Positions 8,930 to 60,762 of a stretch of 64,000 nucleotides of DNA are shown here, one piece after another. The DNA comes from Eublepharis macularius (lineage: Eukaryota; Chordata; Lepidosauria; Squamata; Eublepharidae): assembly GCF_028583425.1 (NCBI RefSeq), contig NC_072792.1:155564676-155628675 (forward strand), read 5' to 3'. Each line of letters begins with the position of its first letter. Positions within the stretch are counted from its first letter, which is position 1. The notes below the pieces were generated by a model, which saw only the letters and a list, made by a program, of their open reading frames with translations, ran no database searches and was not told the DNA's origin. Position numbers and translations under genes: made by a program.

Positions 8930-9025
8930 AGATTCAAGTTCAGTAGCACCTTAAACCAGATTTCCAGGGTATGAGCTTGGGTCAGAGCTCCCCTCTTCAG
9001 ATACTTTCAAATATGGATGTACCTA
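8930..9025 (-). repeat. Fragment of the same hammerhead-like repeat family
   Basis: Plus strand shows AGTAGCACCTTAAACCAG, then GTATGAGCTTGGGTC and CCCCTCTTCAGATAC. In complement the last part reads CTGAAGAGGGGAGCTC, a CTGANGA core followed by stem sequence. The GAAA side is degraded. Confidence 0.4.
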
Positions 9026-9179
9026 GGATTTTATTCAGGCAGAAGGTAGGAGCAGTATCTGAACTAAAGGCGTAAGGTATAATATTAGCTTTGCCTCTCA
9101 AAAGCCCCGGAAATCTAGTTGATCTCCAAGGTGCTCATTTCACCAGATAGCTGCCTTTGAAGTCAAGTCTTCTAAGGTG

Positions 9180-10095
<916 letters not shown>

Positions 10096-10110
<15 letters not shown>

Positions 10111-10265
10111 ATGCACTGCTCAGCAGAGGCCAAATGGAAGATTGGGAAACGTAGTCCGAGTTTAAGAGGAAAAGCGTTCCTGAGGGTTCTCCCCAAGAGC
10201 ATTTTGGGAGTCGTAGTCATACGGCTGAGGCACGCTCCTGGCCGATGCATGACGGGAGCTGACGT
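10096..10265. promoter_or_regulatory. Cluster of four ZNF143/THAP11-like (SBS) motifs upstream of CDK8
   Basis: The known SBS motif is close to ACTACAATTCCCAGCATGC. Four matches lie within 170 bp: plus strand 10096-10114 (GCTACGCCTCCCATCATGC); minus strand 10136-10155 (ACTACGTTTCCCAATCTTCC); minus strand 10199-10217 (ACTACGACTCCCAAAATGC); and a weaker minus-strand one at 10247-10265, ending CTCCCGTCATGC. Such sites are common at CpG-island and bidirectional promoters. They probably drive CDK8 and may once have served RNF6 too. Occupancy is inferred. Confidence 0.6.
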
Positions 10266-10599
10266 TTGGGCAAGGGAGAGGGGCTGAGTGTTTCCTGGTT
10301 GTTGCGGGGAGGCGGTTTCGAACCTCATAGGAATGAAAAGAAGAATTTGCAGCGAAGAATAAAGTAAAAGTCCAGTGCCTACTTAAAAGACTAAGAACGT
10401 TTAGTTAATTAGGAGCATTTGCAGTTAGCTTGGTTATTAATTGGATGGGGGATCTGCGAAGAATGCAAGGGTGGCAGGCAATGGCAAACTACCCCAGCAG
10501 GGTTCCTATAAGTCGGCTTCCGCTTGACGCTTTGCACCACCGGTTCTGGACTAGTTGTTCTGATGCCGTGATCAGGTCAGGTGCATGGATTTAGCAGCA

Positions 10600-10725
10600 G
10601 TGTTGTCTTTGAAAGCAGCACGGATAACCCGGCTTAACCCGCGCATGAGTTATGGGGCAGCATGGGAGGCCACCGAGGAAGACTGGGGCTGCGGTGCAGA
10701 GAAAGGCAATAGCAAACCGCCTCTG
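10600..10725 (+). mobile_element. Degraded 5S-rRNA-derived SINE
   Basis: The order GAAAGCAGCACGGATAACCC, then GGGAGGCCACCGAGGAAGAC, then GGCAATAGCAAACC follows the squamate SINE whose head resembles 5S rRNA. The central 5S-like box is mostly lost here. The clearer copy at 43093-43228 (minus) supports the call. Confidence 0.45.
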
Positions 10726-11364
10726 CTTGTTTTCTGCCTGCAGCTCGCCAGAATTGGAATCCCAATGATTGTTCCAACTTGACCACGTCTTTTCCTTCTC
10801 CCTGTCAGCGAGATTCCTGCAATAGATCCACTACCGTCTTAACACTATTCCAAGCAATTTCCTAAATGAGCAATGGGCAGGGGGGGGGGGGGTTAGGGTA
10901 GAGCATGTGACTATCTGAGGTTCTCGAAATAGGTGTAGTGTTGCAATAAATCCGACGTTCGTTTAAGAAAACACATTGTATGTTCCTAATGGTTTCGTTA
11001 ATACGTTTCCTCCCATTGCATATTTTAATAACGCCCTAATATTGTTCCGGCTGAAGAAACGCTGTATGAGATTTGGGGGTGGGCGCGGGTGACAGCTGGA
11101 TTACTTTGGACGGAAAAGAAATAGCTTTGTGAAAGCTGTTTGCACAGCAAATTGTGGTTGATGGTAAGGCATTAATTGATTGGGAGCAAGGTAATGGCTT
11201 CAGGAAGTAACAGAATTTTGGCTGTGAACAGTCTGAGACTATGTACATCTTCAGAATGGAAATTCTGAGGTTTTTTTTTTTTTTAAGCTGGCGAAGCAGA
11301 TCGGAAGAGGAGAATAAGCCTAACGGTATTGGGTAGCCGACTTGGTCTGAAGTAGAACAGCGGG

Positions 11365-11450
11365 ATTTGAATCCAGTGGCACCTCAGAGACCAACAAGAT
11401 TTTCAGGGTGTAAGCTTTATAACGCCAGAGCTTCCATCTTCAGACCAAAT
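11365..11450 (-). repeat. Fragment of the hammerhead-like repeat family
   Basis: Plus strand reads CCAGTGGCACCTCAGAGACC, then GGTGTAAGCTTTATAACGCC and CCATCTTCAGACC. The complement gives CTGAAGATGG with a damaged distal side. It has the same layout as the copies at 7835-7925 and 49505-49690. Confidence 0.4.
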
Positions 11451-11639
11451 GGTGTAAAATGCGTATTACTGGAGTTCGTTTCTTACCACTAACACAAATA
11501 ATGCTTACCCACAAAGAGTGTCGTTTTCTGCTCAGTACTGTGCATGTTTACTCGGCTGTAAATGCCAGTGCGCAACCTACCCTTAGTGTTTATCTGGATA
11601 CAAACATTCTGACCCTATATCAGCGCCAACCGACTGCAT

Positions 11640-12040
11640 GTTCTGCCTGATGCCGCAGCGCCTAAATCCCGTTGAACGCAATGGAACCTCGAACGACAGA
11701 TGCGTGGGCGTTGAACCACCACTGGCCGTAACCTGTCCTGCAGCCGCGTAGAAAACAAGGACCGCGAAGACTAGGTTTCGCTGCTCGCGCAGGCGCAGTT
11801 CGAAGCAGACACAGGCGTCGGACGTTTCGGCGTTGACTTTGCAGCTGGGCGCTTTTGAGCCGGCGCGGGGTGGAGAGGGAGCAGCAAGTGCCTCTTATAG
11901 ACGAGGCTGACCCCAGAAAGTGGCTTCCTTTTTTATGCGGTGAGGAAGGAAAAGGGTCTGTAGGCACCGCCGCGGCGCTGCCCTGGCCAAGCCACGGTCT
12001 GTCCCTTTATCCTGGTTTCGGTGAGGTTGTGCGGGTGGCA
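11640..12040 (+). promoter_or_regulatory. CpG-rich patch, possible former RNF6 promoter and 5' exon
   Basis: This patch is CpG-dense (GCTGCTCGCGCAGGCGCAG, GAGCCGGCGCGGGG, GGCACCGCCGCGGCGC) while the DNA on either side is AT-rich or repetitive. It lies about 2 kb from CDK8 exon 1 and 2.4 kb upstream of the first RNF6-like coding segment on the same strand. A GT donor-like CGGTGAGG occurs near 12018. No start codon with a recognisable protein was found. It may be the surviving promoter of dead RNF6, or an alternative CDK8-side promoter. Confidence 0.35.
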
Positions 12041-12090
12041 ATTGTGTCCGTTATTCTTTCTTAGCCCTCTCCTGTCCTCTGAGGCTCTAA

Positions 12091-12300
12091 TAGGGTTGCC
12101 AGCTCCAAGTTGGGAAATTCCTGGAGATCTGGGGAGTGAAACCTGGTGAAAGTGGGGTTTGGGGAGGGCCTTGGCATGGCATAATTCCATACGGTCCAGC
12201 CAAAATAGCCATTTTCTCCAGGTGAACGGATCTCTGTGGCCTGGAGACCAGTTGTAATTCCAGGAGATCTCCAGCTAGTACCTGGAGGCTGGCAATGCTA
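12091..12300 (+). mobile_element. Short hAT-like element (AGGGTTGCCAGC family)
   Basis: The ends are TAGGGTTGCCAGC and, in complement, TAGCATTGCCAGC. The flanks GGCTCTAA (12083-12090) and GGCTCCAA (12301-12308) are an 8-bp duplication with one mismatch. The interior has ATTCCTGGAGATCTGGGG and GCCATTTTCTCCAGGTG, as in the copy at 43408-43626. Confidence 0.75.
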
Positions 12301-12784
12301 GGCTCCAAAGAGGTCTGGCTCGGGAGGCGGTCATTAGCCCCAGGCAAGAACCAGGGGCTGCCCCACCTGGCGAGTCAGGCAATGTTTTTGGGTTGCCAAT
12401 CTCCAGGTGGTGGTTGGAAATCTCCCGGAATTCTACCTATTCTCTACACAACAGAGTGAGTCCCCTTCTAGAACAGCTTTTGCTCAAAGGCTGTGGCTTT
12501 CGTACCAGCCTGACTAAAGGCGCCTGCCCTGGCTGATTCTGTTCTGACAGCAGAAACCTGGTGGTGTGGCCTAACAGAGCCCTCAGTTCCAAGGTGAGAG
12601 GTTTTCCCCCAAAGGGTTTTTTTCTGATGGAAAAAACTGGGAGTTTGGGGGAACTGAATGAGAGGCTGGAAAAATTCCTGTGAAACTGGTTAGGCATTTT
12701 TTCCATGGCTTCAAAATTTATGCAAGTTTTGTATCTCTGTTCCAGGAAGCAATAAAATTGTAACAGAAAGGATTCTGTATTTTT

Positions 12785-13130
12785 ATGTTTATTTTATTTA
12801 AAGCATTTCTGTGCTGTCTTTCCATCCAAATAGGACCCCAATGTGGTTAACAATAAGGCTTTTAAAACATTTTAAAACAGATATAACCAAGGAGGAGAGC
12901 CAATAAGAGTTTGCTGGGGTTATGCCAGACAAACCAAAAAAAGCTTCGCCAGCTGGCAGAAAACAATGACAGCAGGAGACAGATGAATCTCCATGGGGAG
13001 GGAGTTCCAAAGGTTTGGTGCCGCAACTGAGCAGGTTGTCTCTTGAATCACTACTCATCTAGACTCAGATAGAAGGGTCACTGGAAGCAAGCCCTCTAAA
13101 GATGACTGGAATGAATGGGTAGGTTCATAA
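12785..13130 (-). mobile_element. CR1/L2-type LINE 3' fragment (minus strand)
   Basis: The low-coordinate end is TTTATTTTATTTAAAGCATTT followed by the ACCCCAATGTGGTTAAC block of a LINE 3' UTR. Further in, GGAGGGAGTTCCAAAGGTTTG is the complement of the WN(G/S)LP-like ORF2 tail. It is 5' truncated and broken. Confidence 0.55.
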
Positions 13131-13839
13131 TGTAAATAAATAACTATAGTGTATGGCTTAAGTGTGCCATACTTTAAGGGTGAACTGTCATCATTTTTTT
13201 GTTTTCCAGCAGGTGCCTTATCTGTAACAACTATAAGATGGGTAGAAATATCATTGGTGCATTTTGGGGGTCCTTGTTTGGGGGAAAAAATCTGAATTTT
13301 TCTGTGTCCATTGAAAGTTTGGCATTTATGTTAAAAGATAAATCAAACAGACTGTGTTTGAAACATAATCTGTAGGTTCATTCAGCTTTCTTGTCTATCT
13401 TGCAACAGTTTGGTTTCTCCACAATGGACTTAGGGGAAAGTGGTGGGAAGGTCACCTTTCAAAATCCCAGTGGTGAAGATGAAAGGCAGCGACAGTAGGA
13501 GCACCTTAATAGACAGGAAGCCTATTACCAATTTATTAATGATCTCTGTGGTAAAGACTACAGATTAATGAGAGATTGTAGCTTCTTTGGGACTCCAGAT
13601 GAGGTGTGGTTTACCTTTTGCAGTTATATCCTGCCCTTTCTTCAGGGACCTTAGGGCAGAGTATACTGTTCTTTCCACGCTTTTATTCCTCTGCTGGAAT
13701 TCTGAGCTAAAGTTCATGTAGCTATCTTTTTAGTCCATCACTTTGAGTGTGTAAAAGAAAATGAAATGATGATTATGATGCCTTGAGTCCAAGGAGATAA
13801 GGGAGGACAAAAATGTTTTAATTAAATAAATAAGCAAAT

Positions 13840-14045
13840 GTACCCATTTTTGTTTGTTTGCTTCATTTATGTCTTGCTTTTCTCTCCAATGAGGATGCAG
13901 AGCAGTTTACATTATTCCTTTCCCCTCAATTTAGGTAGAGAGGGTGTGACTGGCCCAGGGTCACCCAGCACATTTCCATGGCAGAGTGGGGCTTCAGATC
14001 TGGATATCTTGGATCCTAGTCTAACACACTAACCACTGTATCAAA
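13840..14045 (-). mobile_element. tRNA-derived SINE (minus strand)
   Basis: On the minus strand a head with AGTGGTTAGTGTGTTAGACT leads into a B-box-like AGATCTGAAGCCCCA region, the GTCACACCCTCTC block and a tail near 13840. It lies just upstream of the RNF6 relic. Confidence 0.6.
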
Positions 14046-14636
14046 TTTAAGCCTCATGTGCCTAGGGAATGTTTTAATTCTAGTTTTCTGGGTTTTGTAG
14101 GAAAAAGTATTGCAAATTATGCCCCTTTTTTCCTTCCATTGGCTTAGAAGGATGCCTTCATTTGTGCAAAACAGAAGAAAGACAACTCGAATGTTAGATT
14201 TCACTTCCTTAAATTTTATAATTTGTTTTAGAATCAAATTTATCAGGAGAAGCCACATCAAAGGTAAGTGCCTCAGAACTGTGAGCAGGGTTTATCAAAG
14301 CGTTTGCAAATTGTTGTAGTGTAGAATAATCTTGCCATCTCTCTTATTTCTCAGATGTATTTGGAGCACTATCTTGAGTCTTGCCATTACAAATTATCTC
14401 TTATGATCTCTTTATTGATTTCTCATTTTTATTTCTTCTCTTTTCTTGTATGTCATAGGATGAAAAAAAAACCCTGCCCTGTTTCTATGTGTTGCTCAAC
14501 CAATAATAAAACTCATGATATCATGTACAGTGCTTCAGGGGAAATAACAGCAGATGAGCTGCAACATATTTGCAAGGTACAAAGGAGCAGCTGGTATCCC
14601 AATCTGACATAGAAAATGGAGGAGATCCAGTTAGAT

Positions 14637-15908
14637 GTAAGCTGTCTTTGTAATATAATAATTTCTTCGTTGATCGTTTTCAAGAGATTCCAACTCTGTA
14701 GATACTTAACAAAATATTCTTTCCTATATTGCTGCTAAAACACTGACTTTTCATCTACAACATACCAAGATGGTGATATGTCTTGGTCGCCCAGAACCTA
14801 CAGAGCTTCTGAAGCTGGTCTGCAAGATCTACACCCCAGCCTTCTCTTAGGGTTCCTGTGTGATGTGATTGCTTTCTTAACAACCCTTTTTGGTTTTTTG
14901 GATTTGTGCTGTATCACTGGCTCATAAAAGAGTTGTGTGAATTGCTCAGGAGCACTTTATTATTTATTTGCTTTATGCATAGCCCACCTTTCTCACAGCT
15001 ATTTAAAATGGATTATACCATCTGAAACAATGCATGTAATTTAGCATGAAGCAGCCAACAAAAATGCATTAGGACTAGGATCAGAAACATTGAAATCTAA
15101 TAACAATAATAACAACAACATTTGATTTATATACTGCCCTTCAGGACAACTTAACGCCTACTCATAGTGGTTTACAAAGTGTGTTGTTATTATCCTCATT
15201 ACAATCACCCTATGAGGTGGCTGGGGCTGAGAGATCTCCTCCATTCACTCTCCCCAATATTTACAGATAACTGAATTACGTTTTAAAGTGATGGGTAATT
15301 ATTATTGTAAGGGTAGGACATCTGATACCCATTGCTTTAATAACTGCAGTTTACTACTGTAGGCATTAAGCTTTGTTTCATATGTCAAATAACCAAATGT
15401 TCTTTAGAGTGAAGTAACATCATGATAAAATCTAAGTTTATTTTTCACAACTACAAACTGGAGCGAAAATAAATTACTCCTCCATAATTCAAATATAACA
15501 ACATACTATGGTATGCAGAGCGGGCCTATGGGCCATGATTTCTGTGCAAAACTAGGGGATTGACAAGTATAGATATATGTCTTTATTTTTGCACGCGCAT
15601 ATTGGAATCATGCAGAATTGCAGAGCTGCCCACTTAGCTCCGATTAAGATCCATTTTTGCCCATGAAACTGCTTGAGTTGTGCTCCCCTGCTGTAAACTT
15701 TCAACATTTGTTTAAGAGGCTAGGTTTTTATAAGTCGTCAGCATTTGCAGTACCTGAAGGGAAGTGGAATGCGAACCCTTTCTGTGATTATATGATCACA
15801 GAAGATTGCAATTTCAGACATTTAGGTTATCAAGGAGTACAATTACCTGCCTTTCTAAAGTTTTAAGCCCTGTAAAATATATCTTAAATATATTTTAACT
15901 GCTTACAG
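14637..15908 (+). other. RNF6: Former RNF6 intron between the two exon relics
   Basis: It is bounded by GTAAG at 14637 and TTACAG at 15908, so both splice signals survive. It contains a tRNA-derived SINE (about 15100-15280, minus). The rest is AT-rich with no recognised feature. Confidence 0.65.
15100..15280 (-). mobile_element. tRNA-derived SINE, 3' part (minus strand)
   Basis: AACAACAACATTTGATTTAT followed by ACTGCCCTTCAGGACAACTT and AGTGGTTTACAAAGTGTG is the tail half of the SINE seen complete at 50565-50825. The tRNA head is missing or eroded. Confidence 0.65.
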
Positions 15909-17158
15909 ACTATGAGACTGTTGGGTAAACCCAGCCAGTGATACCCTGCTAGAATGGCTGCATATATTCCATTGTACAAGAAATTCTAACCGAAGTGAAC
16001 TGAGTGGAAACCAGACTCAGACCTGTGAGCCAGGCAAACCCAACTAGCAGATAATTAAAGTTTAGACTTGAAATAGATATAAATCATGAATATTATAGTG
16101 AAAGTGGTCCCAATCCAGAATATGATGGCATCTCACATGTAGAAAATATTCCTCCAATAGCAGATATCCCAATAGCCAGCCAAGCAAGGAGCAGGGTATT
16201 GAGAGAGACATTTGGCCAAGCCCTTGCCTCCTCAGGAATATAAGTGGTTCATTAGCACAGTATGGTGAAGAAACACCTTGGCTTCTGGGCAGACTCAGCA
16301 GCAGAAACAGCAGCTCAGCTCAGCATCACACAATGAACACAACATTATCAGACAAAGGAGAATACAGAGAGTTACAGCAGTGAGGCTTCACAGTGGGATA
16401 GCCAGAGCTAGTACTCGGAGGACTATGAGACAAAGATCAGATGTGTTAAGTAGCTGAAACCAGACCCTATTGGAAGGATGGCCATGTCAGAATAAACAAA
16501 AGCAGGTCTAGTGGGATGCATAGAGTCCATTCTCTTCCATGACAAGGTGAAGTGCAAATGCCATCACTGGGTATAACTGGAAGAGGAGGAATTTGAGAGA
16601 TCCATAACCTTGCTTACAAGGTATCCTGCCATTGTATCAGACCTTCTGGTAAAAACAACTTGACCCAGAGAACACAGATACCAGGTCAGGATTGGTAGAA
16701 GAAATCACTCAGGACTGGACATGGCAGGAAACTTGGTCACTTCTGAAAGTAATACTGAGGGATTTCATCAGATCATTTCATAAACTGAACATCCAGGTGT
16801 ACAAAATTACATTAGCATCTTGTGTATACCTCCTCGTAGGATATCAGAACCTGGACTGGTCTAAGCAGTGTTGGTGAATTCAGAGAAACATCATTTGAAG
16901 CAGGCCTGCTGAACACGATAGCAGGGAATGGCATGGAGAGATCAGCGCTACAGAACATGATAGTCATGAGGACTAAAAGCAAGGGAGCAAGTTTCAAGAT
17001 GTCAACAATTTAATTGCAAACGGGACACTTCCTATTCTTTGTCTTGTGCCTTTTGTTAGATGAAAATACCACTGTTTATTGAGAGGATTTACCAAAGACC
17101 AAATGGACAATCTTTGTACTCTCAATTATGGGGCTACTACCATAGAAGAAGGTGAACC

Positions 17159-17284
17159 TGTAGTAGATGCATGAATGAATATGTGGTGGGACGCAAGCTA
17201 AGGCAGTTACCATGTATGCATGAGTTCCATATTCATTGTATGGATCATTGGCTTTCTGAAAATTCTGCTTGTCCAATTTGTCAG
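17159..17284 (+). other. RNF6: RING-H2 domain remnant of RNF6, open for 42 codons
   Basis: The frame reads [16 protein letters not shown], then [11 protein letters not shown], then [15 protein letters not shown], and then a stop. All eight zinc ligands of a C3H2C3 RING are present: CxxC, CxHxxHxxC and CPIC. From memory of human RNF6, about 31 of 42 residues agree. The family's last dozen residues after CPICR are cut off by the stop. It is out of frame with the upstream GFTKDQMDNL segment. Confidence 0.9.
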
Positions 17285-18215
17285 TAATCTGTTGTAACCT
17301 AATATCAGACAGTGGAGAAATCCTCAAATTCTTGATTTTGTTGGGTCTGTTGGAAGCTGGTATTTCATTACTATTTTGAATAAGAGGAAGGGATTTATGT
17401 TTAAAATTGGAGAAACTTGGACTATATTTGAGAGCAAACAATCTCAAATATCCATGTTCTGACTGTTATAAATCTTCATAATTTGAATGCATTTCAGGTT
17501 TCAGGCATCAAATGAGAGTGCGGGGTCACATGTGCCTTATGACTGATCATTGAAAGCTACAAGCTGGTATCTCCTAGACTCCAGCTTTGATAACTTGCTA
17601 GTCCTTGGGTCCTAAAAACATCTGCAGTAATATTTATACCTTATGCCATTGACGGTGATTTGCTTCAGAAGTCAAAATTCTCCCCCTTCCGTTTGTTTTT
17701 ACATTGAAAAGCAGCCTTTAAATCAAGAGACTATTCAGTCTGCTGCTGGTACAACAAACACCTGACTAGAGATCCCCACTAGGGGTGACCCTAAAACTTG
17801 TCTGACTTAACTGACATCAGATTGGGTAGGCGATATCCGAGATCTGTAAACATCATTTGTTGGGAATTAAATGGAGCCTGCCTGCCTCCCATTCTCTAGG
17901 AAACAGCCTTTCTTCTGGCCAATCTTAGTCCTGGGTCTCTTCAGGAGGGTTGCCTTGGCCAAGCACATTGTCCTTGGAGGGGAGGGAAATTTTAAATGGC
18001 AGTCATCACTTACGTTAGGCATTTTGCATCAAGTGTGCACTCAACTGCCCCTTGTGTCATGGGACAGATGTCTCTCTAGGCCTGACAGATCCTGTATGGG
18101 CTACACTGGGCTATTTTCTTGACAAATGTTTTGATTTTGATTATTAATTCACTACTAGCTAGTCTTTCCTTTGTTCCTTTTCTCTGGTGGGAGGGAGGGA
18201 GGGAGGATGACATTT

Positions 18216-18296
18216 AACAGTGCAATCGTAAGCAGATTCACTCCATTGATTTCAATGGGCTTAGACTGGTGTAACTCTTCTTAGGATTGCACTGTT
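18216..18296. mobile_element. 81-bp palindromic miniature element
   Basis: The ends are AACAGTGCAATC and its exact complement. The interior pairs AAGCAGATTCACTCC with a GGTGTAACTCTTCTT-like arm around a TTGATTTCAATGG centre. It is a common squamate foldback sequence. A partial relative lies at 58683-58745 (AAGCAGAGTTACTC, then AAGCCCATTGATTTCAATG). Confidence 0.7.
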
Positions 18297-21200
18297 GGTC
18301 ATGGGGATGGTGTACTTTGGGAGAGGTATTTTTGTTTTGGTATGGGTTAGCCTCTGACTTGTTTTGATCCTTTTCTTTGCTTCTGATGAGTTTGTTTCTT
18401 GCTTTTTTAAAAAAAAAATATGGTTCATTTTCTTGGTTGGTTTTTCTGGTTGACCACAATGGGTTGCCTGTTTTCCACCTTTTTATAGATTAGTGATTTT
18501 GAGTAATGTCATATATTTAAGTTTGGATGATTAGGCTCACTTTCCTTTTTTAGATTACTCTGCAAAGAGAGACCATTCCCCCCGCCCCCCCAACAAATCA
18601 ATTGCAATTCAAAATCAGCTGGCCTCAATTTTTAAAAATGCTCCCTTCTTCCACAATGTGATTGGCGGGGTGGGTGGGCGCTTCACAAGATAGACACTCT
18701 TAAACAACTGCCTTTACTTGCAGTTATTAAGTTTGGTAAAAACAAAACAATCCAGAAAATCAGCGACCATTTTTGTGCCTTTTTCTACTATGCAGACAGG
18801 ATGGCTGGGGGTACGTTATTCAAGGGGCTGTAAAATTGCACCCCTTTGTCTAATCTACTCGAAACTTGGAGAGTCTTTAGAAGAGAGGGTGAACTAGATT
18901 CCCTGATATTTTGATACCATTTAGCAAGAAAAAAAATGTCTGCTCAGGAAAATCTTCCATGCAGACATCCAATTTTAATGAAAACTGAAATGGAACATAA
19001 CATGTCTTCATCGTGATACAACAAAACATTTACAAGAATTCTTAAAACAGATAAACCTTCACTTTCTTAAATTATAATGTGAAATTAAAACCAGATTTTT
19101 TCCCAGTACACACTTCTAATGCCCATAGGACATATTCCCCTTGTAGAGTGCACAGTAGCATTGGCCTAGATTATTATGGGGGGTAGAAGGCTTCTGGAAC
19201 TCTCCTGTTGCCCTATCCTGCTCCTTCCTGCTTCACATACTGTGCTGCTTGACTGATAGAGAAGATTGGGTTAAGAATGTGGCAGATAGGTACATGCCTT
19301 CCGTTCCTGAAAATGACCTGGTAAAAGTGTCAGGTGCTCAGCATCAGGATCACCTGTCATACTCCTGCAGCTAAGGCTGATGCTGTTGGGGGCTGGGAAA
19401 CTGAGAACAGGAAGGGGTTATTGATTCCTACTGTAACCTCTCTGTAGCCTGAGAACCTGGCCTTGAGAAGTCTATGAATCACACAGCCTGATTTCCTGCT
19501 TGTAGAGTCCAAAGACTATTAGAAGGTGGGGGGGGGGAGGAAAGTAGCCACGGGGAATCTTTAGCTGCTTTAGGCTGGTCTGTAGCTGTCAGTCCTAGCA
19601 AGGATGGCATGAGAGCATGAAACTAGCATCTTATCTATAAACAAGTTTAACTCCTGAAGTCTTTTGAGAGCTGCCTGACAGCCTCACAGTAAGCTGAGTG
19701 CCAACGAATGGCCCAGAGTGGGGTGGGTGTGTGGGTGAGGCAAGCAGGCCCCTTTGCAGTTTTTGTAGGGATTCATTCCACTGAACTATGCTAACCTGCA
19801 GTGGACTGGCCCCAAACCAAGGGGTTTGACAGATGGACATAGTTCAGCTTGAAGAGACTGCGTGTGTTCTTATTTAATACTGGTGTTTTTATGTAATAAT
19901 TTTAAACTAGGATATATATTTTGAAAAGACACTTTAAAGAGATTGAAATATAAATAATTAAAATTGTAACAGTTATTATTTTAATCCATGCTCACCTTTA
20001 CAAAATAAATGCAATATCTGAAATTTTCTAAATATGTAATTTCTGCTGATTCATGAAAAACTTAATTTAAATGTAATTTTATTTTAAACCCCCTGCGTAA
20101 CTCATAAATTTGCAAGACAAGAAACTATTGCTGAGTATCGACTTCATTTTTGTAGCTTTTGAGACAGTACGTATAATTTACATGAATTAAGCTTTGAGTA
20201 AATCCATTTACTCAGCCCCAGTCCTCGAGCAAGTTACTCCAGATAAACCTGATGGGACACGTCTAAATTCAACAACTTGATAACTGTGCCTTAGCATCTG
20301 TCTCTCTGAACAGGGAGAGTCCATTTTGCTCTTATTACTAAGTCATTAATGGACCCTGTTGGGCAATTTCATCCTATCATATATGTAAAAATCTTGTTGA
20401 TCGTAAAAATAATAATGTGAAATATGTTGTGTTGGGACCGGACTAGATGTTTCCACAGGTGTGAGGATTCCTGCTCACAGAACTTGATTCCTTCTTTCTT
20501 ACATCAGTCTGATGTAAGGCTCCCAAAGATTCTCTTCTTATAGGTGAGGAGACCTCCCCGGAACAAGATTTCAGGGGGGCATTTGGGCTTGCTGTAGGAG
20601 AAGGGAAAATCACATGCCATTTGCAGAAATCCTGATGCCTACTAAAAAGTTCATTAGTATGGAACCAACCCATTTTTAGTGCCCCAAATAAAAGAAAATA
20701 GTACCTATCTAATAATCTTAGCAAGAGCCACTTTTCAGAAATACGAAGTGCTGTGAACCAAGTGGAACTAGCCATGGTGCTGAAAATTCTTCCTCCAAGT
20801 TTGTATAAGGTCAGTAGAATAGGCATCTCTGTTTCAGGTCGTCTACTTATGTTGAATATATCTGGAAGTGAATTCTATATAATTATTCTCAAAAGTAATT
20901 ATAATGTTTCTGCACCCCATGTTCCCATTTTAATATTTTATTTGTAGCAATGTGGCTGGAGAAGAAGGGGTTGTGCCATAGAGGTTCTCAAGGTTTAGTT
21001 TTCTTTAAGTAACATCAGTAAGTTTTCCAACTTCCAACTTTTCAGTACAGCAATATCTACTATGCAGAATACCCAATTTATTTTTAAAGATGCCCTTGTA
21101 TACTTATAGCCCTCCAGGCTAACAGAATATTGAGCCTCCTTACCTGATAGAATTAGAATTAGGAAGTGCCTGGTTCAAATATTGCCACTGCCATTAGTGG

Positions 21201-26079: not shown

Positions 26080-26295
26080 TACACATGAAGTTGTCTTCTA
26101 CTGAGGCAGACCTTTGGGCCATCAAGGTTGGTATTGTCCATTCAAATTGGCGCCAGCTCTCCAGGGTCTTATACAGTGGTCTGTCACATCACCTATTGCC
26201 TGGTCCTTTTAACTGGTGATGCCAGGGATTGAACCTGGCACCTTTTGCATGCCAAGCAGATACTCTATTATTAAGCCACAGCCTTTCATAATAGA
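26080..26295 (-). mobile_element. tRNA-derived SINE (minus strand)
   Basis: The complement reads AGTATCTGCTTGGCATGC as the anticodon-arm region and GGTTCAATCCCTGGCATC as B box, then the CTGGAGAGCTGGCGCC and ATACCAACCTTGATGG blocks. It is the same family as 4589-4760, abutting another SINE at 26296. Confidence 0.75.
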
Positions 26296-27300: not shown

Positions 27301-27849
27301 TCATATCAATATATCCAATGTGCCAAAGTGCAGAGAGTATCTGAGAATGACAGGAGTGTCTTAACTTTATACAGCTGTCAATAAGGTAATGAACCTAAGA
27401 CGTTATCTGTGGTGTCCCTCTGGCCAGGAGTTAAATTATTTGATATAGGAAAGCTAATTAGATGCTCAGGGCTCCTTAAATGCACGCTTGAATTGGAATC
27501 AAGCCTGACCAGAGTCATCCGGAAAATACATTGGACAGGGAATGCTCTTGCTCCCTTGGATGCTTTCCTCATATTGCTTTCTCAATGCAAACTGACTTTC
27601 CATCAGAGCATCTATTCCTCCATACTGGTACCAGCATGTTGCCACCCTCAAGTGTGGAGGAGACCACCGCTCCAGGGAAGGGGCAATTTGCACAGGGGAA
27701 ATGTGGTCAGGGAGAAGGTTAAATGCTCACTCCTTGCCCCATGGATCCAGTATGAGCATCCTGTGGCTGCTCTCTGCTTCAAACAACATTTAGAATTAAC
27801 AGAAGAGGCCATCCTCATGGGTCCTAAACGCAGTTTGGTGGTGAGCAAA

Positions 27850-29110
27850 TGGCAGAGATGAACGAATGTGCTCCTTTCGGCCCACGCCGCTTCTCCTACA
27901 CCGCTCCAGTCAACGGGGAGAAAGGGGAGATACCGTCTGGACTTGTGCTGGTTAAGAGCCATTCTTGCGGGCAAAGAACAAGGCACGATCTCGGGGGAAA
28001 GAGGCTCGCCGACAACCCCTGAAGTCCAGGGCGGGCCTGTTAAGCCAGCGCCAGCTTGGTGGCCGCAGCGTCCTTCCCCGGCAAGCGCCTGGTGGCCCCT
28101 GAACAACGCTATACATGATGGCAAACGCCAGCCTGCTTCTCAGAGGCCGGCGGGAGCAGGAGGGGGCCTGGCGTGCTAACAGGATTGCGTCTGCTTGGCA
28201 TCAGCCCAGGCAGCGAGGGGAATCCGTGCCATGCCCAGACCTCCCCCCCACCCCCAGCTGCTTGCCTCTCCAGCCGAGCGACACCCCACCTGGCTGCTGC
28301 AATCGCGCTGATTTGCATCGCAGCCGACGGATCGGACGCCCCCCCCTCCCGCCCCTCGCAGCGTCCCGGGCTCCGCAGCGAGGAGCCGAGGCCAAGCGGG
28401 GCTTTCGCAGCTCCTGCCGCAAAGAAGGCCCAGGCGCCAGCCGCAGTAGCCACGCCGTGCGTGGGGGCGGGAGCCGGCGAGGGGATGGCGCGGCCGCTGC
28501 AGCCCTAGCCGGCCTATGGACTTTGCTGGGCGCCCCCGCCTTGGCCCTGAGAGCGCAGCATGCCGAACCCCGGCGGCCTCGACAAGGCGCTGAGGATGTC
28601 CCTGCAGAGGAAATCCAAGATCCACTCGGCTGCGGGTAAGGCCGGGGTCGGGGGGCGGCAGCGGCGGCAGCGCCCCCAAGCCCTCCCTCCTCCAAGCCGA
28701 CTCGCAGCGCCCGCCTGTCTCTGCAGCCCTCGAGCAGACGCTGCGGGTTCGGCAGCCTGTGCGGAAGCGCTGGCAGTTTTCGGCGCTGGAGCGCGGGGCG
28801 GGAGGGGGAGCCGCGGCCCGGTTTTAATGGCAGCAGCGTGCGCGCACACACACACACACCCCGCAGCCGGTGAGCTCATCCTGGTGGGGGCAAAACACGA
28901 GCTGCAGCCGTTGCAAACCTGCGGCAAGGGAGTGCGGAAGGAGAAGGAGGGGAGTTGCAAATCTCCCGGGATTGATCCGTTTCCACTTTCGCTTTTAATG
29001 CTCTCCAGAGAAGAAGGGGGTGGGGAGAAATCTCTGCTCAAAATGCGGAGATTTGAATGCATACCGAGCACCCACCGGCACAGCTGCAGGTAGAGAGCCG
29101 CGCACGCCAT
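27850..29110 (+). promoter_or_regulatory. ATP8A2: CpG island and promoter of ATP8A2
   Basis: CpG density rises from about 27870 and is highest at 28300-28860, around coding exon 1. The 5' UTR should lie in about 28200-28559. Long open frames on both strands here come from the GC content. A short CA run sits at 28846-28860. No TATA box was noticed. Confidence 0.75.
28560..28635 (+). CDS. ATP8A2: ATP8A2 coding exon 1 (P4-ATPase flippase), first exon only
   Basis: ATG at 28560 opens MPNPGGLDKALRMSLQ, then RKSKIHSAA and a split Gly codon; the exon ends in CTGCGG followed by GTAAGG, a phase-1 donor. The long human ATP8A2 isoform, as I recall it, begins MLNGAGLDKALKMSLPRR, then SRIRSSVG with the same phase, so GLDKAL-MSL and the basic run after it match in register. 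ATP8A2 flips phosphatidylserine and phosphatidylethanolamine to the cytosolic leaflet, with CDC50A as partner subunit, mainly in neurons and photoreceptors. All transmembrane and catalytic parts (DKTGT) lie in later exons outside the window. The exon sits in a strong CpG island. The match is short (25 residues), but the start, the spacing and the splice phase agree, and human ATP8A2 is in the same chromosomal neighbourhood as CDK8 and RNF6. Confidence 0.85.
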
Positions 29111-30165
29111 CTCAGTAGCTTTGCACTTCGCTCTCTGCGTTTGATGACGTTCGGTCTGTATCAGGGCAATCCCCAGGCAGGCGTAGTTGGGAATACGAAC
29201 TGAGCACAGTGAGACCCTGCTGCAAGTGAATTACCAGTTCGGGGTTCTTTGCCGCCTCCTCTCCGCAATTTAAACCCCCTTTACCTTCAGCCGACCAAGT
29301 TTCCTATTCCTGGGGGTGCATTTAGTATTTTGCATGGGAGAATCACGGTTATTTAGGCGTAGGAACTGACACGAATCCAGCTGTAGCAGGGCGGCGCGGG
29401 GGAGGGGGGGGAGTGAGTTCTGTAAGACCAGTGGAGTTTACTTGGAAATAATGGCGTTTAATTGGGCTGTAAATTGGGTTGTGTGCATTCATACCTCTCG
29501 AGATGCTTAAAAATAAACTCCCTTGCCCACCCACCAGGCACATCAAGAGCTGCCATGTGCTAAATCAGCCCTTAGCCTCTAGATGGATGCTCTGCTTGCT
29601 CTGGCAAAACAGAAACTCAAGCCAACTTTCAAGCCCTTCTGTTGAGATCATTTATTTCAGGGTTTCTCAGACTTCCTGGTCTACCTTTTAAACTTAATCT
29701 CAACAAATGTAGCCATCTGCTCAGTGGGTGAGCGCATCACACAGTCCTCATATGGGTATGTGTGTGTTTGCAGCATGGGGAGTATATTTAGATTGGGGTG
29801 AAATTCTATTATATTAAACACTGCATCCTGCCTGTGTCTCCCATTCCTCGTAGTCTCTTGTCCCAATCCAGTCTCCATCATGCAACTACATGGCCCCCTA
29901 CCTTGACACAGCCAATCTGGCCACCTGAAATCATGGCACAGTAAGATCAAAACTAGACTACTGTAATGCACTTTACATTGGCCTCCCCTCAAAGCTGACT
30001 CGGAGACTCCAGTTGATGCAGAACGCTGCAGCTTGTTTACTCTCAGGAGCTAGATAGAGCATGTATATTGTGCCCGTTCTTCAGTCACTCCATTGGCTTC
30101 TCATTTACTGGGCTCAGTTCAAGGTCATGGTTATCATATTCAAAGCCCTTCATGGTCACATATCT

Positions 30166-35940: not shown

Positions 35941-36838
35941 TTAAATTTTCTTCTTCCCCCCCCTGGGCCTCGGACGCAGTTCTCTCTGAGCAGCTACAGC
36001 CACTGTGCTCACTGCCTCCCCCCTCCCTTCAGGCTTCGAGTCTTCTTCATTTTGCATGATATCTTGCCCGAATTCTTGATTTTTGTCCACAAAATCCCTT
36101 AGCTGATCCTCTGAGTTTATCTTGTAGGCTTGATCTTTATAATTAAACCAAATTCCTTCCGGAAATAGCCATTTATACTTTATCCCTCGTTCCCTCAGGA
36201 GAGCTGCGAGCTTTTTGTACTTAAATCTTCTTTTCTGAACTAGAAATGGAATGTCCTTCAGTATCTTGACTTTATTTCCCAGAAAATCCAAGTCCGCATT
36301 ATATGAGTTAAATAGGATAGTGTCTCGGACCTTCCTAGATGAAAACTCAATAAAAATCTCGCGAGGCAGCTGCCGCTTCATTGCATATTTTGAAGAAGCC
36401 CGACGGACTTCCAAAATGGCGCTTTTTACCTCTTCCTTAGTTGCCCTCGCGGGTGACGCCAATATTTCTGAGGCAAACTCCCTTAAATCCTCGTTTTCCT
36501 CCTCTTTAACATTCTGGAGACGCAAAACAGTCTGTGTTCGTTCCACTTGCAGCCCGATCAGCTGGTTTTCCACCAGCTTTAGCTCCTTGTTCGTTGCTCT
36601 CATGAGTGACGCATTTTCCCGAGCAGACTTCTCTGCCCCCCCCCACTGCTTCCTTAATGGCTTTCACATCGCTCTCAATTAAGCCCACCCTTTGATCTGT
36701 TTCATTCAGCTTGTCAACAAAGGGTTTTATGGCTTCAATGACCGACCTTTTCACCAATTCCTCGAGCGACTCCGCTTTTCCCTGCAGGGCAGCCGAAATT
36801 GACTTGCCCAAAGCGGGACTCTGCTTTTTTGCTGCCAT
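35941..36838 (-). pseudogene. L1 ORF1 (RNA-binding chaperone) with one frameshift
   Basis: From ATG at 36838: MAAKKQSPALGKSISAALQG, then a heptad-like coiled-coil stretch (LNETDQRVGLIESDVKAIKE). The frame changes at a run of ten C (36637-36646). In the next frame the sequence continues SLMRATNKELKLVENQL, then the RRM-like RTQTVLRLQNVKEEENEDL and the C-terminal domain (KILKDIPFLVQKRRFKYKKL, SEDQLRDFVDKNQEFGQ), stopping at 35941. This is the order coiled coil - RRM - CTD of L1 ORF1p. Only the homopolymer break separates it from an open frame, so slippage or a sequencing error is possible. Confidence 0.85.
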
Positions 36839-38594
36839 TTTAGGGGGGGGGGACCTCCAACCTTCTGAAACTCAGCGAGGGGGAAGAAAACCGAGTCTCC
36901 TTAACTTCAGATCCCACCACTCCTTCGCATACGCTTGTAATAACAGAAGGGATTCGCTTACTTACATGCTTCCGCCTAGTCCTGTTCTTTGCCGTTTTCC
37001 GTGGCTCGGCAGCACGCAAGGTGCCGCGCACGTCTGCTGGCCTCCATGGGGACAAACGGGCAATTTACCCCCTGCCTCGATTTGCCAGAGGGCTCTTCCC
37101 GCAGCGTCCCAGACCCTGACTCCCTCCCTGGGAGTCCTGGGGGCTAATCTTTGCAGATCAGCCGCCCGGTCAGGCTGCTCGGACGTTTCCTCTCGGACCT
37201 GCGAAGAGGAGCGTCCGACATGGCCGCGAAAACGAAACCGAATCAGGTTGAGATGAAAATGTATGGCTATCTGGAAATCCTTACTTGGGTCATGCTCCTT
37301 CTGACTAACCTATCTCATAGGATTATTGTGAAGGAAGAACCGCATCCACCACCCTTGGAGGAAGTGTATGATTTAAAAAAGGGGGGAAGTTGAACCTCAG
37401 ACCCGCCCAGATTTATGGGTCAGGTCTCTTTGTCGCCCTTCCTTCTGCCATTCACAGCACACAAATTATGCTATCTGAAGTGGCTGCCTCATTCTACCAC
37501 TATCCAAGACCCTCAGGATTTGAGAATGGAGGTTTTCACTGGAATTACTAGGGCGAAATATGGGATCTCATATGCGTAAAACATGTTCTACCACTCCCCT
37601 TTGGTTCCCCTGATGCTGTTGCACAGTAGAAATTAAGCTTGTCTCTTGTTCTCGTGCATAGATTTTAGGAGCTGCTGATCGAGGGTAAATATTGATAACA
37701 GCATATGCTGAAGAAGACAGGAGGCTGTAGAGAAGATGTGATGGGTGCAACCCTTTGGGGGTGATACCAAGGACGGTGCAGACCCTTTGGGGGTGACCCT
37801 TCTGGTTTGTTTCAATTCATAGGGAAAATCTTTTTTCCCCCATCAAACAGTTTACTTATATTTCAGTGAAGAAAGGTCTGCTAAGGGCATCTGCTCAGTG
37901 GAATTACATCTGCAAAGTCATTTGAAAAACATAGGCGTTGTGAACTATGATCTAATATAGCTGCATTGAGACCTATCAATACAAAATACTGGTACTGTTC
38001 AAAAACAAGACTAATGGAAGCTGCTGACATCTGGCTGTAGTCCTGAGATTTTGGCTGTGGAACACGTATGTGGAACTGGATACTTCTAAAAATTCATTTG
38101 CTGTAGCTATTACTTACAATTCAACAGTTCCAGGTACCTAAACCTTCAATGAATATACGAATCTGTATCATGCTGAATCTGACATTGCATACAGCCCTAT
38201 AACGTTTATTCCATCTGGCGACATAGGGTTTCAGCAGTGTTTCCATGCCCAGCTATTGGAAATCCTTTAGCTGGAAATGCTGGGGATTGAACATGATGCA
38301 TCTTCTGCCTAAGCAAGTGCGCCCCCGTTATGACCCATTTTTATCAAAAAGTGACACCTTGAATCCTCTCACAGTCATGCTCATGTCTGGTCCCTAAAAC
38401 ACTCGTGCTGGCTTCCAAAAGAGAGAGGGGGAGAGAGAGACTGACCATCACTGAGAAATGTCAGAGTTTTTGGAATCCTGCTGTAATTCTTTTGTAGGTA
38501 GTCTCTGTGAATGCTGGTCTCCACCTCCACTCCCCCATCCTGGAGGACCAGAGAAGAAGAAGAAAACCGTACAAAGAGGAGCATTTTAACAAGC

Positions 38595-59417: not shown

Positions 59418-60038
59418 CCAAAAAACACAAATGAGCACTGATGCAGTGAACTAAATTCTTCACACAATGTTCACAAAAATAATTTAGTGAATTTGAAAGT
59501 AATATACAAGAGTGAATACAACATGTGAAATTCTAAAACATCATCACTATAATATCATCACAATCAATCACACACAGCAAGGTGTTACAACACCGAGTAG
59601 CATGTGTATCCTCAGAAAAGGGAAGAATCCCAAGAGTTCTCTTATGAGCTGTCTTCAGTCAGTACACTGAGGATTCCCGCTGAAACCGCGGGGGCAGATG
59701 AAAAGTCCCTCCGGACAAAGTGGAAAGGAGCTGGAAGACTGGGAGGAGAATGGAATGTGCAGGTGGAGAACAGCAACCGGGAGCCCCCGAGGGGGACCTC
59801 CCCGCCCGACAAGCCTCCGGGTATCTCAAGCTTGTTTCATGAGCACTTCCTCACGGGGCGTGGTTTCTCCTACCACGATGGTATTTCTCCGACTCTCCCA
59901 CAAACTCTTTCACGTGCTGAAACTCTGCGCACTTCCAGGGACCGCCTCTAATTTAGTTCACTGCATCAGTGCTCATTTGTGTTTTTTGGCAAGTTTGGGT
60001 GGGTGAGCATCTTTGATAGCCTCTTTTGGTTTGAGTTT
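59418..60038. mobile_element. 621-bp insertion with 15-bp direct repeats and 41-bp perfect inverted arms
   Basis: TCTACTTGGAGTTTG occurs on both sides (59403-59417 and 60039-60053). Inside, 59417-59457 and 59950-59990 are exact inverted copies over 41 bp; the right arm lies 48 bp in from the right boundary, so these are not simple terminal repeats. The interior is partly GC-rich and has no family I recognise; a 115-codon plus-strand frame (59604-59951) shows no known domain. Confidence 0.7.
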
Positions 60039-60093
60039 TCTACTTGGAGTTTGGCAGTCCTGTCCCTTAGTCTTCTCACATTGTATAAGAAGA

Positions 60094-60762
60094 CAGCGCT
60101 GGATCTAGGGTTGCCCGCGCCTGGGGCAACGCTTGGCCGACCACCTTGTGTGCACGCGCTCCCCGTGCTGCGTGATGATGTCACTTCAGTGATGTCATCA
60201 TGCAGGGCGGAACGGCAGAGGCAGCGTGTGGGGCTGGGAAGCCGCTCGCGCCATTCACCTCCCCGCAGGTGAATGGCGTGGGCGGCCTTGCAGCCCCGCA
60301 CGCTGCCTTTCGCCTGCCCCGCAGGACAGGGTGGTGGCCGGCTTGCCGCGCACCCCGTGCCCCGCACGCTGCCTTTCGCCTGCCCCGCAGGACAGGGTGG
60401 TGGCCGGCTTGCCGCGCACCCCGTGCCCGTGCAGGGCAGGCAAAAGGCAGCGCAGCCACCTGCACCATTCACCTGCCCCACAGGACAGGGGGTGGCCAGC
60501 TGCCCCTGTCCTGCGGGGCAGGCAAAGGGCGCGGGCGGCCCTGCAGCCCCCCACGCTGGCTTTTGCCTGCCCTGCAGGACAGGGGGTGCGTGGCAAGCCG
60601 GCCGCCCTCTGTCCTGCGGGGCAGGCGAAAGGCAGTGCTGGGGGCTGCGAGGCATGGGGGGCTGCTGCCTGCGCCCTCTGGCAGCTGGCAGCTGCTCCCG
60701 GTGCCCCCTCCCTGGTGGCGCCGGGGCAGACTACCCCCTTGCCCCCCCTCGATCCGGCCCTG
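60094..60762. mobile_element. GC-rich hAT-like element with 8-bp target duplication and internal 66-bp tandem repeat
   Basis: TAAGAAGA flanks both ends (60086-60093, 60763-60770). The ends are CAGCGCTGGATCTAGGG and, in complement, CAGGGCCGGATCGAGG, an hAT-type terminus. Inside, 60293-60358 is repeated exactly at 60359-60424 (66-bp unit starting GCCCCGCACGCTGCC), with further inverted relatives of the CTGCGGGGCAGGC word up to 60630. The overlapping 180-230-codon frames on both strands are GC-driven and are not called. Confidence 0.75.

Follow-up and report, generated by a model that had tools for sequence, protein, structure and literature searches.

The window, that is, the whole stretch of 64,000 nucleotides analysed (C3:155564676-155628675), carries the remnant of an RNF6 gene on the + strand at ~13.4-17.3 kb, together with the first exon of CDK8 and a CpG island. 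The human counterpart is a RING-H2 E3 ligase encoded at 13q12 next to CDK8. RNF6 and RLIM (RNF12) are sister E3 ligases, both kept in human. The features of the locus are:

9554-9682, - strand: CDK8 exon 1, the divergent syntenic neighbour (tblastn, 95% identical with human CDK8 over residues 1-43)
11601-12000, + strand: CpG island, possibly the old RNF6 promoter and non-coding first exon
13410-13598, + strand: remnant of the RNF6 first coding exon (tblastn, 61% over human residues 24-67)
14539-14636, + strand: remnant of the RNF6 second coding exon, with GEITADELQ and GTKEQLVSQSDIENGG (weak tblastn pieces and frameshift-aware alignments)
15909-17290, + strand: remnant of the RNF6 last coding exon, with the DTLLEWL, PPRRISE and GFTKDQMDNL pieces (tblastn and frameshift-aware alignments)
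17156-17287, + strand: RING-H2 remnant (PF13639, E 8e-13; the best PDB match is RLIM)

The query proteins (human RNF6, RLIM and CDK8) were sequences entered by hand. With human RNF6, tblastn returned pieces at 13475-13606, 15940-16017, 16019-16195, 16580-16861, 16902-17147 and 17159-17284, and two weak ones at 14508-14564 (E 0.15) and 14570-14620. As a control, 200 shuffled RNF6 proteins and one reversed were searched against the same window, and their best piece reached 31.6 bits. Five of seven RNF6 pieces lie above this value (80.9, 71.6, 58.5, 55.1 and 33.9 bits); those at 16019-16195 (30.8 bits) and 14570-14620 (24.6 bits) lie below it and are supported by their order and place. The peptides named in the original prediction do occur in order on the + strand, both in the sequence and by tblastn. 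The start of the interval had been placed at 14459, which is ~1 kb too late, and the upstream coding exon at 13410-13598 was missed.

The first coding exon remnant follows a CAACAG acceptor (seen by eye), opens with ATG at 13425, continues as RQEAYYQFINDL..YRLMRD..GTP and ends at 13598, a boundary set by the RLIM gene of the same genome. It contains an in-frame TAG at 13496. In the RLIM gene the matching exon ends at the same codon, with CCAG|GTATGT, and the next resumes with G|GT GAG ATT. The RNF6 remnant reads CCAG|ATGAGG at 13598|13599, with AT in place of the GT of RLIM, and the donor is thus lost; the TTCAG acceptor (ending at 14538) is kept, and the exon resumes with G|GG GAA ATA. Since both exon ends were compared with RLIM of this genome, the first coding intron can be assigned the position and phase of the RLIM intron, with a broken donor. 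In the second coding intron both the donor (GTAAGC at 14637) and the CAG acceptor (ending at 15908) are preserved. For the second intron of RLIM several splice choices fitted, a GTATGT donor and a CAGCAG acceptor were adopted, and its agreement with the remnant is no test. The proposed intron still bounded by splice signals is therefore found in the second coding intron, while the first retains the acceptor and not the donor.

The RING-H2 remnant still spells all eight zinc ligands (by eye). A stop stands directly upstream of it, and its in-frame ATGs are at 17171, 17216 and 17240, the first of them already inside the RING and past its first two cysteines. A residual gene encoding the RING only was considered and rejected: there is no ATG before its first cysteines, and the clean 129-nt stretch has a ~0.23 chance of occurring at the observed lesion density.

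The frameshift-aware alignment to human RNF6 (with corrected exons) spans residues 24-673 and gives 232 identical codons out of 524, with 8 stops and 10 frame breaks, in agreement with the several stops and frame changes described earlier for this DNA. Human residues 1-23 have no counterpart in this alignment. A laxer setting gives 228 identical codons out of 516, 7 stops and 15 frame breaks, one of which, at 14543, is a boundary artefact. Six stops are common to both settings (13496, 16052, 16574, 16661, 16781 and 16974), as are six frame breaks (near 14568, 15923, 16018, 16856, 16900 and 17157, the one at 15923 hinging on the assumed acceptor). Alignment is poor in the middle of the last exon, where the lesion counts are uncertain. 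The observed/expected CpG ratio is 0.11 in the last exon of the remnant, compared with 0.51 in the last exon of RLIM.

The remnant shares with human RNF6 the order of segments, the RING sequence and the divergent neighbour CDK8, and differs from it in the stops, the frame breaks and the lost donor. RLIM belongs to the same family, is intact in this genome and lies on a different contig (C13). The frameshift-aware alignment score of the remnant is 681 with human RNF6, and lower with RLIM (501 for the gene of this genome and 448 for the human protein). Judged by these scores, the remnant is nearer to RNF6 than to its paralogue.

The divergent placement with respect to CDK8 was borne out: exon 1 runs from 9682 to 9554 on the - strand, and the later exons lie on the same contig and strand. 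The genome search located CDK8 at 12 places in order over C3:155519437-155574357, on the - strand and 76-98% identical. Stops were reported inside four of the 12 places. Two stretches covering three of those four were re-read and yielded eight CDK8 pieces with 83-100% identity, all stop-free, and exon 1 is stop-free too, so that the stops in the CDK8 matches sit at the match edges. The CDK8 reading excludes residues ~106-127 and 159-170, part of that sequence being N. At the level of sequence, both CDK8 and RLIM are intact where readable. SHISA2, on the other flank, was not found in the window (best E 2.9).

The whole assembly (2,236,738,225 bases in 72 contigs) was searched for another copy. 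With the RING as the query (33 of 33 candidates scored) there were 11 matches, namely the remnant itself, RLIM and nine weaker hits, none better than E 4.5e-8. With full-length human RNF6 (35 of 35 candidates scored) there were 18, of which four belong to this locus, three to RLIM, and 11 fall entirely within query residues 610-682, at the RING end. RLIM, at C13:7119218, has an open frame of 533 residues. Over 568 aligned positions this RLIM shows 67% identity with the human protein, and it is the only other relative in the assembly that matches past the RING. Thus neither query revealed a second RNF6 locus in the 2.24 Gb assembly, a search that a copy missing from the assembly would escape; the 12 CDK8 places in order, recovered by the same genome search, serve as a positive control. 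An intact RNF6 elsewhere in the genome had been named as the finding that would speak against the loss, and none emerged from the whole-assembly search. A protein database search with the RING sequence returned no candidate.

The depth of the decay was estimated on a set of 183 conserved sites, at which human RNF6 and human RLIM are identical, in seven blocks picked as well aligned (289 codons). The remnant keeps 117 of these sites and has changed 66, while RLIM of the same assembly keeps 181 and has changed 2 (Fisher p 1.8e-20). At the 181 sites identical in human RNF6, human RLIM and the RLIM of this genome, the remnant retains 115 (64%). Neutral decay simulated on RLIM codons, with a transition bias of 2 or 4 and without CpG hypermutation, matches the retention of the remnant at ~0.22-0.23 substitutions per site. 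The retention is uneven: the N-terminal exon and the RING keep 51/66 sites, and two middle blocks keep 48/91 (p 0.002, with the groups picked after seeing the data); the remaining three blocks, with 16/24 sites kept, stand outside this comparison. The corresponding neutral estimates are ~0.12 for the N-terminal exon and RING and a little over 0.3 for the two middle blocks. Such unevenness is not predicted by uniform decay, and could result from alignment selection or from partial constraint before the final loss. All these estimates lean high, because substitutions from before the loss are counted and CpG decay is outside the model.

For the rate, one study compares two geckos that split 87.2 million years ago and reports a median KS of 0.230 (PMC5901865), which by our own division corresponds to ~0.0013 per site and lineage per million years, and another gives squamate fourfold-site medians of 0.00175-0.00178 (PMC7116210). 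At these two rates, 0.12-0.22 substitutions per site would translate into roughly 65-170 million years, an order of magnitude, and the middle blocks alone would be older. Because the decay is this deep, it suggests that the loss of RNF6 is old and probably common to other geckos.

The ordered pieces, the place next to CDK8, the intron matching that of RLIM, the lesions, the score preferring RNF6 and the lack of another copy together lead us to read the locus as the orthologous RNF6, decayed in place into a unitary pseudogene, with a probability of about 95%. The proteins compared were human ones and the RLIM of this genome. Selection on RNF6 would have ended in an ancestor of this lizard, after which stops, indels that shift the frame and random replacements would have accumulated in the gene and a splice donor would have been lost; meanwhile the neighbour CDK8 and the paralogue RLIM would have remained intact where readable. 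No functional RNF6 protein would be expected from this locus, and some of the E3-ligase work that was lost may be done by RLIM. Pseudogenes commonly arise from retrocopies or segmental duplicates, and a decayed copy of either kind would leave a working RNF6 elsewhere. The assembly contains no other RNF6, however, and the locus occupies the orthologous place adjoining CDK8. A processed retrocopy should also lack introns; here two introns split the coding pieces, the first at the position and phase of that in RLIM. The earlier view of decay in place is upheld by these introns and by the CDK8 synteny, and a retrocopy or duplicate is very improbable. That the sequencing or the assembly is at fault, or that RNF6 has diverged yet still functions, is barely conceivable. 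Assembly errors do typically take the form of frame breaks, and the RING still matches PF13639 with its zinc ligands in place, but point stops and a lost donor are of another kind, no ATG precedes the first cysteines in the RING frame, and the contrast in changed conserved sites between the remnant and RLIM arises within one and the same assembly.

Decay of RNF6 in place may also have left a trace at its 5' side. Positions 11601-12000 contain 36 CpG in 400 bp (observed/expected 1.03), compared with an observed/expected ratio of 0.16 over 12001-19500, downstream of the island. Inside the island are GCGCAGGCGC at 11787, an NRF1-like motif, and a donor-like GCG|GTGAGG near 11938. A genome search with 11401-12100 gave six other matches, each covering only the first 43-46 bases, and the rest of this segment has no match elsewhere. 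The island possibly represents the promoter that RNF6 once had, with germline methylation still absent. In an extension of the unitary-pseudogene reading, the protein would be dead and the surviving island would drive transcription of the locus as a non-coding unit. The CpG contrast with the downstream sequence favors this, as methylated CpGs are expected to decay over the time estimated above. On the CDK8 side, however, the ratio drops less: it is 0.68 over 10501-11600 and 0.79 over 9001-10500, the island of CDK8. Positions 11601-12000 may thus form only the margin of a wide unmethylated domain belonging to CDK8, and because of the intermediate values between the two islands the transcription unit is possible but rather unlikely. 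The full scenario, with a single loss in the gecko stem (or earlier among squamates) of the order of 100 million years ago, a CpG-island promoter unmethylated and active since then as a protein-less unit beside CDK8, and RLIM taking over the ligase role, is distinctly doubtful. The window contains other CpG-rich stretches, to which no gene is assigned, at 27751-29500, 36501-37500 and 59751-60500.

Unitary pseudogenes are known from other genes, e.g. GULO in primates. The RNF6 locus resembles them in the in-place decay of a single-copy gene with no replacement copy; what differs here is the gene. A literature search covering main texts, with few subscription journals among them, found no report of RNF6 loss in squamates or reptiles, and none that treats RNF6 in the evolution of RLIM paralogues. 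The titles and abstract openings retrieved for RNF6 and gene loss concerned other subjects only, and RNF6 was not mentioned among the matches listed in a broader search. RNF6 is absent from the main text of the genome paper on the Madagascar ground gecko (PMC5901865). A list of lost genes outside the texts searched could still include it.

A lineage lacking RNF6 would represent a natural knockout, in which the tasks of RNF6 that are dispensable can be told from those assumed by RLIM. One such task is the ubiquitination of the androgen receptor. Another, as cited in a review, is the control of TLE3 in Wnt signalling (PMC6826584).

Elsewhere in the window, a GC-rich unit of 66 bp is repeated in tandem at 60293-60428 (2.1 copies, 100% matches). 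The single tRNA-family match from Rfam, at 26214-26283 on the - strand (32.2 bits), is possibly a SINE.
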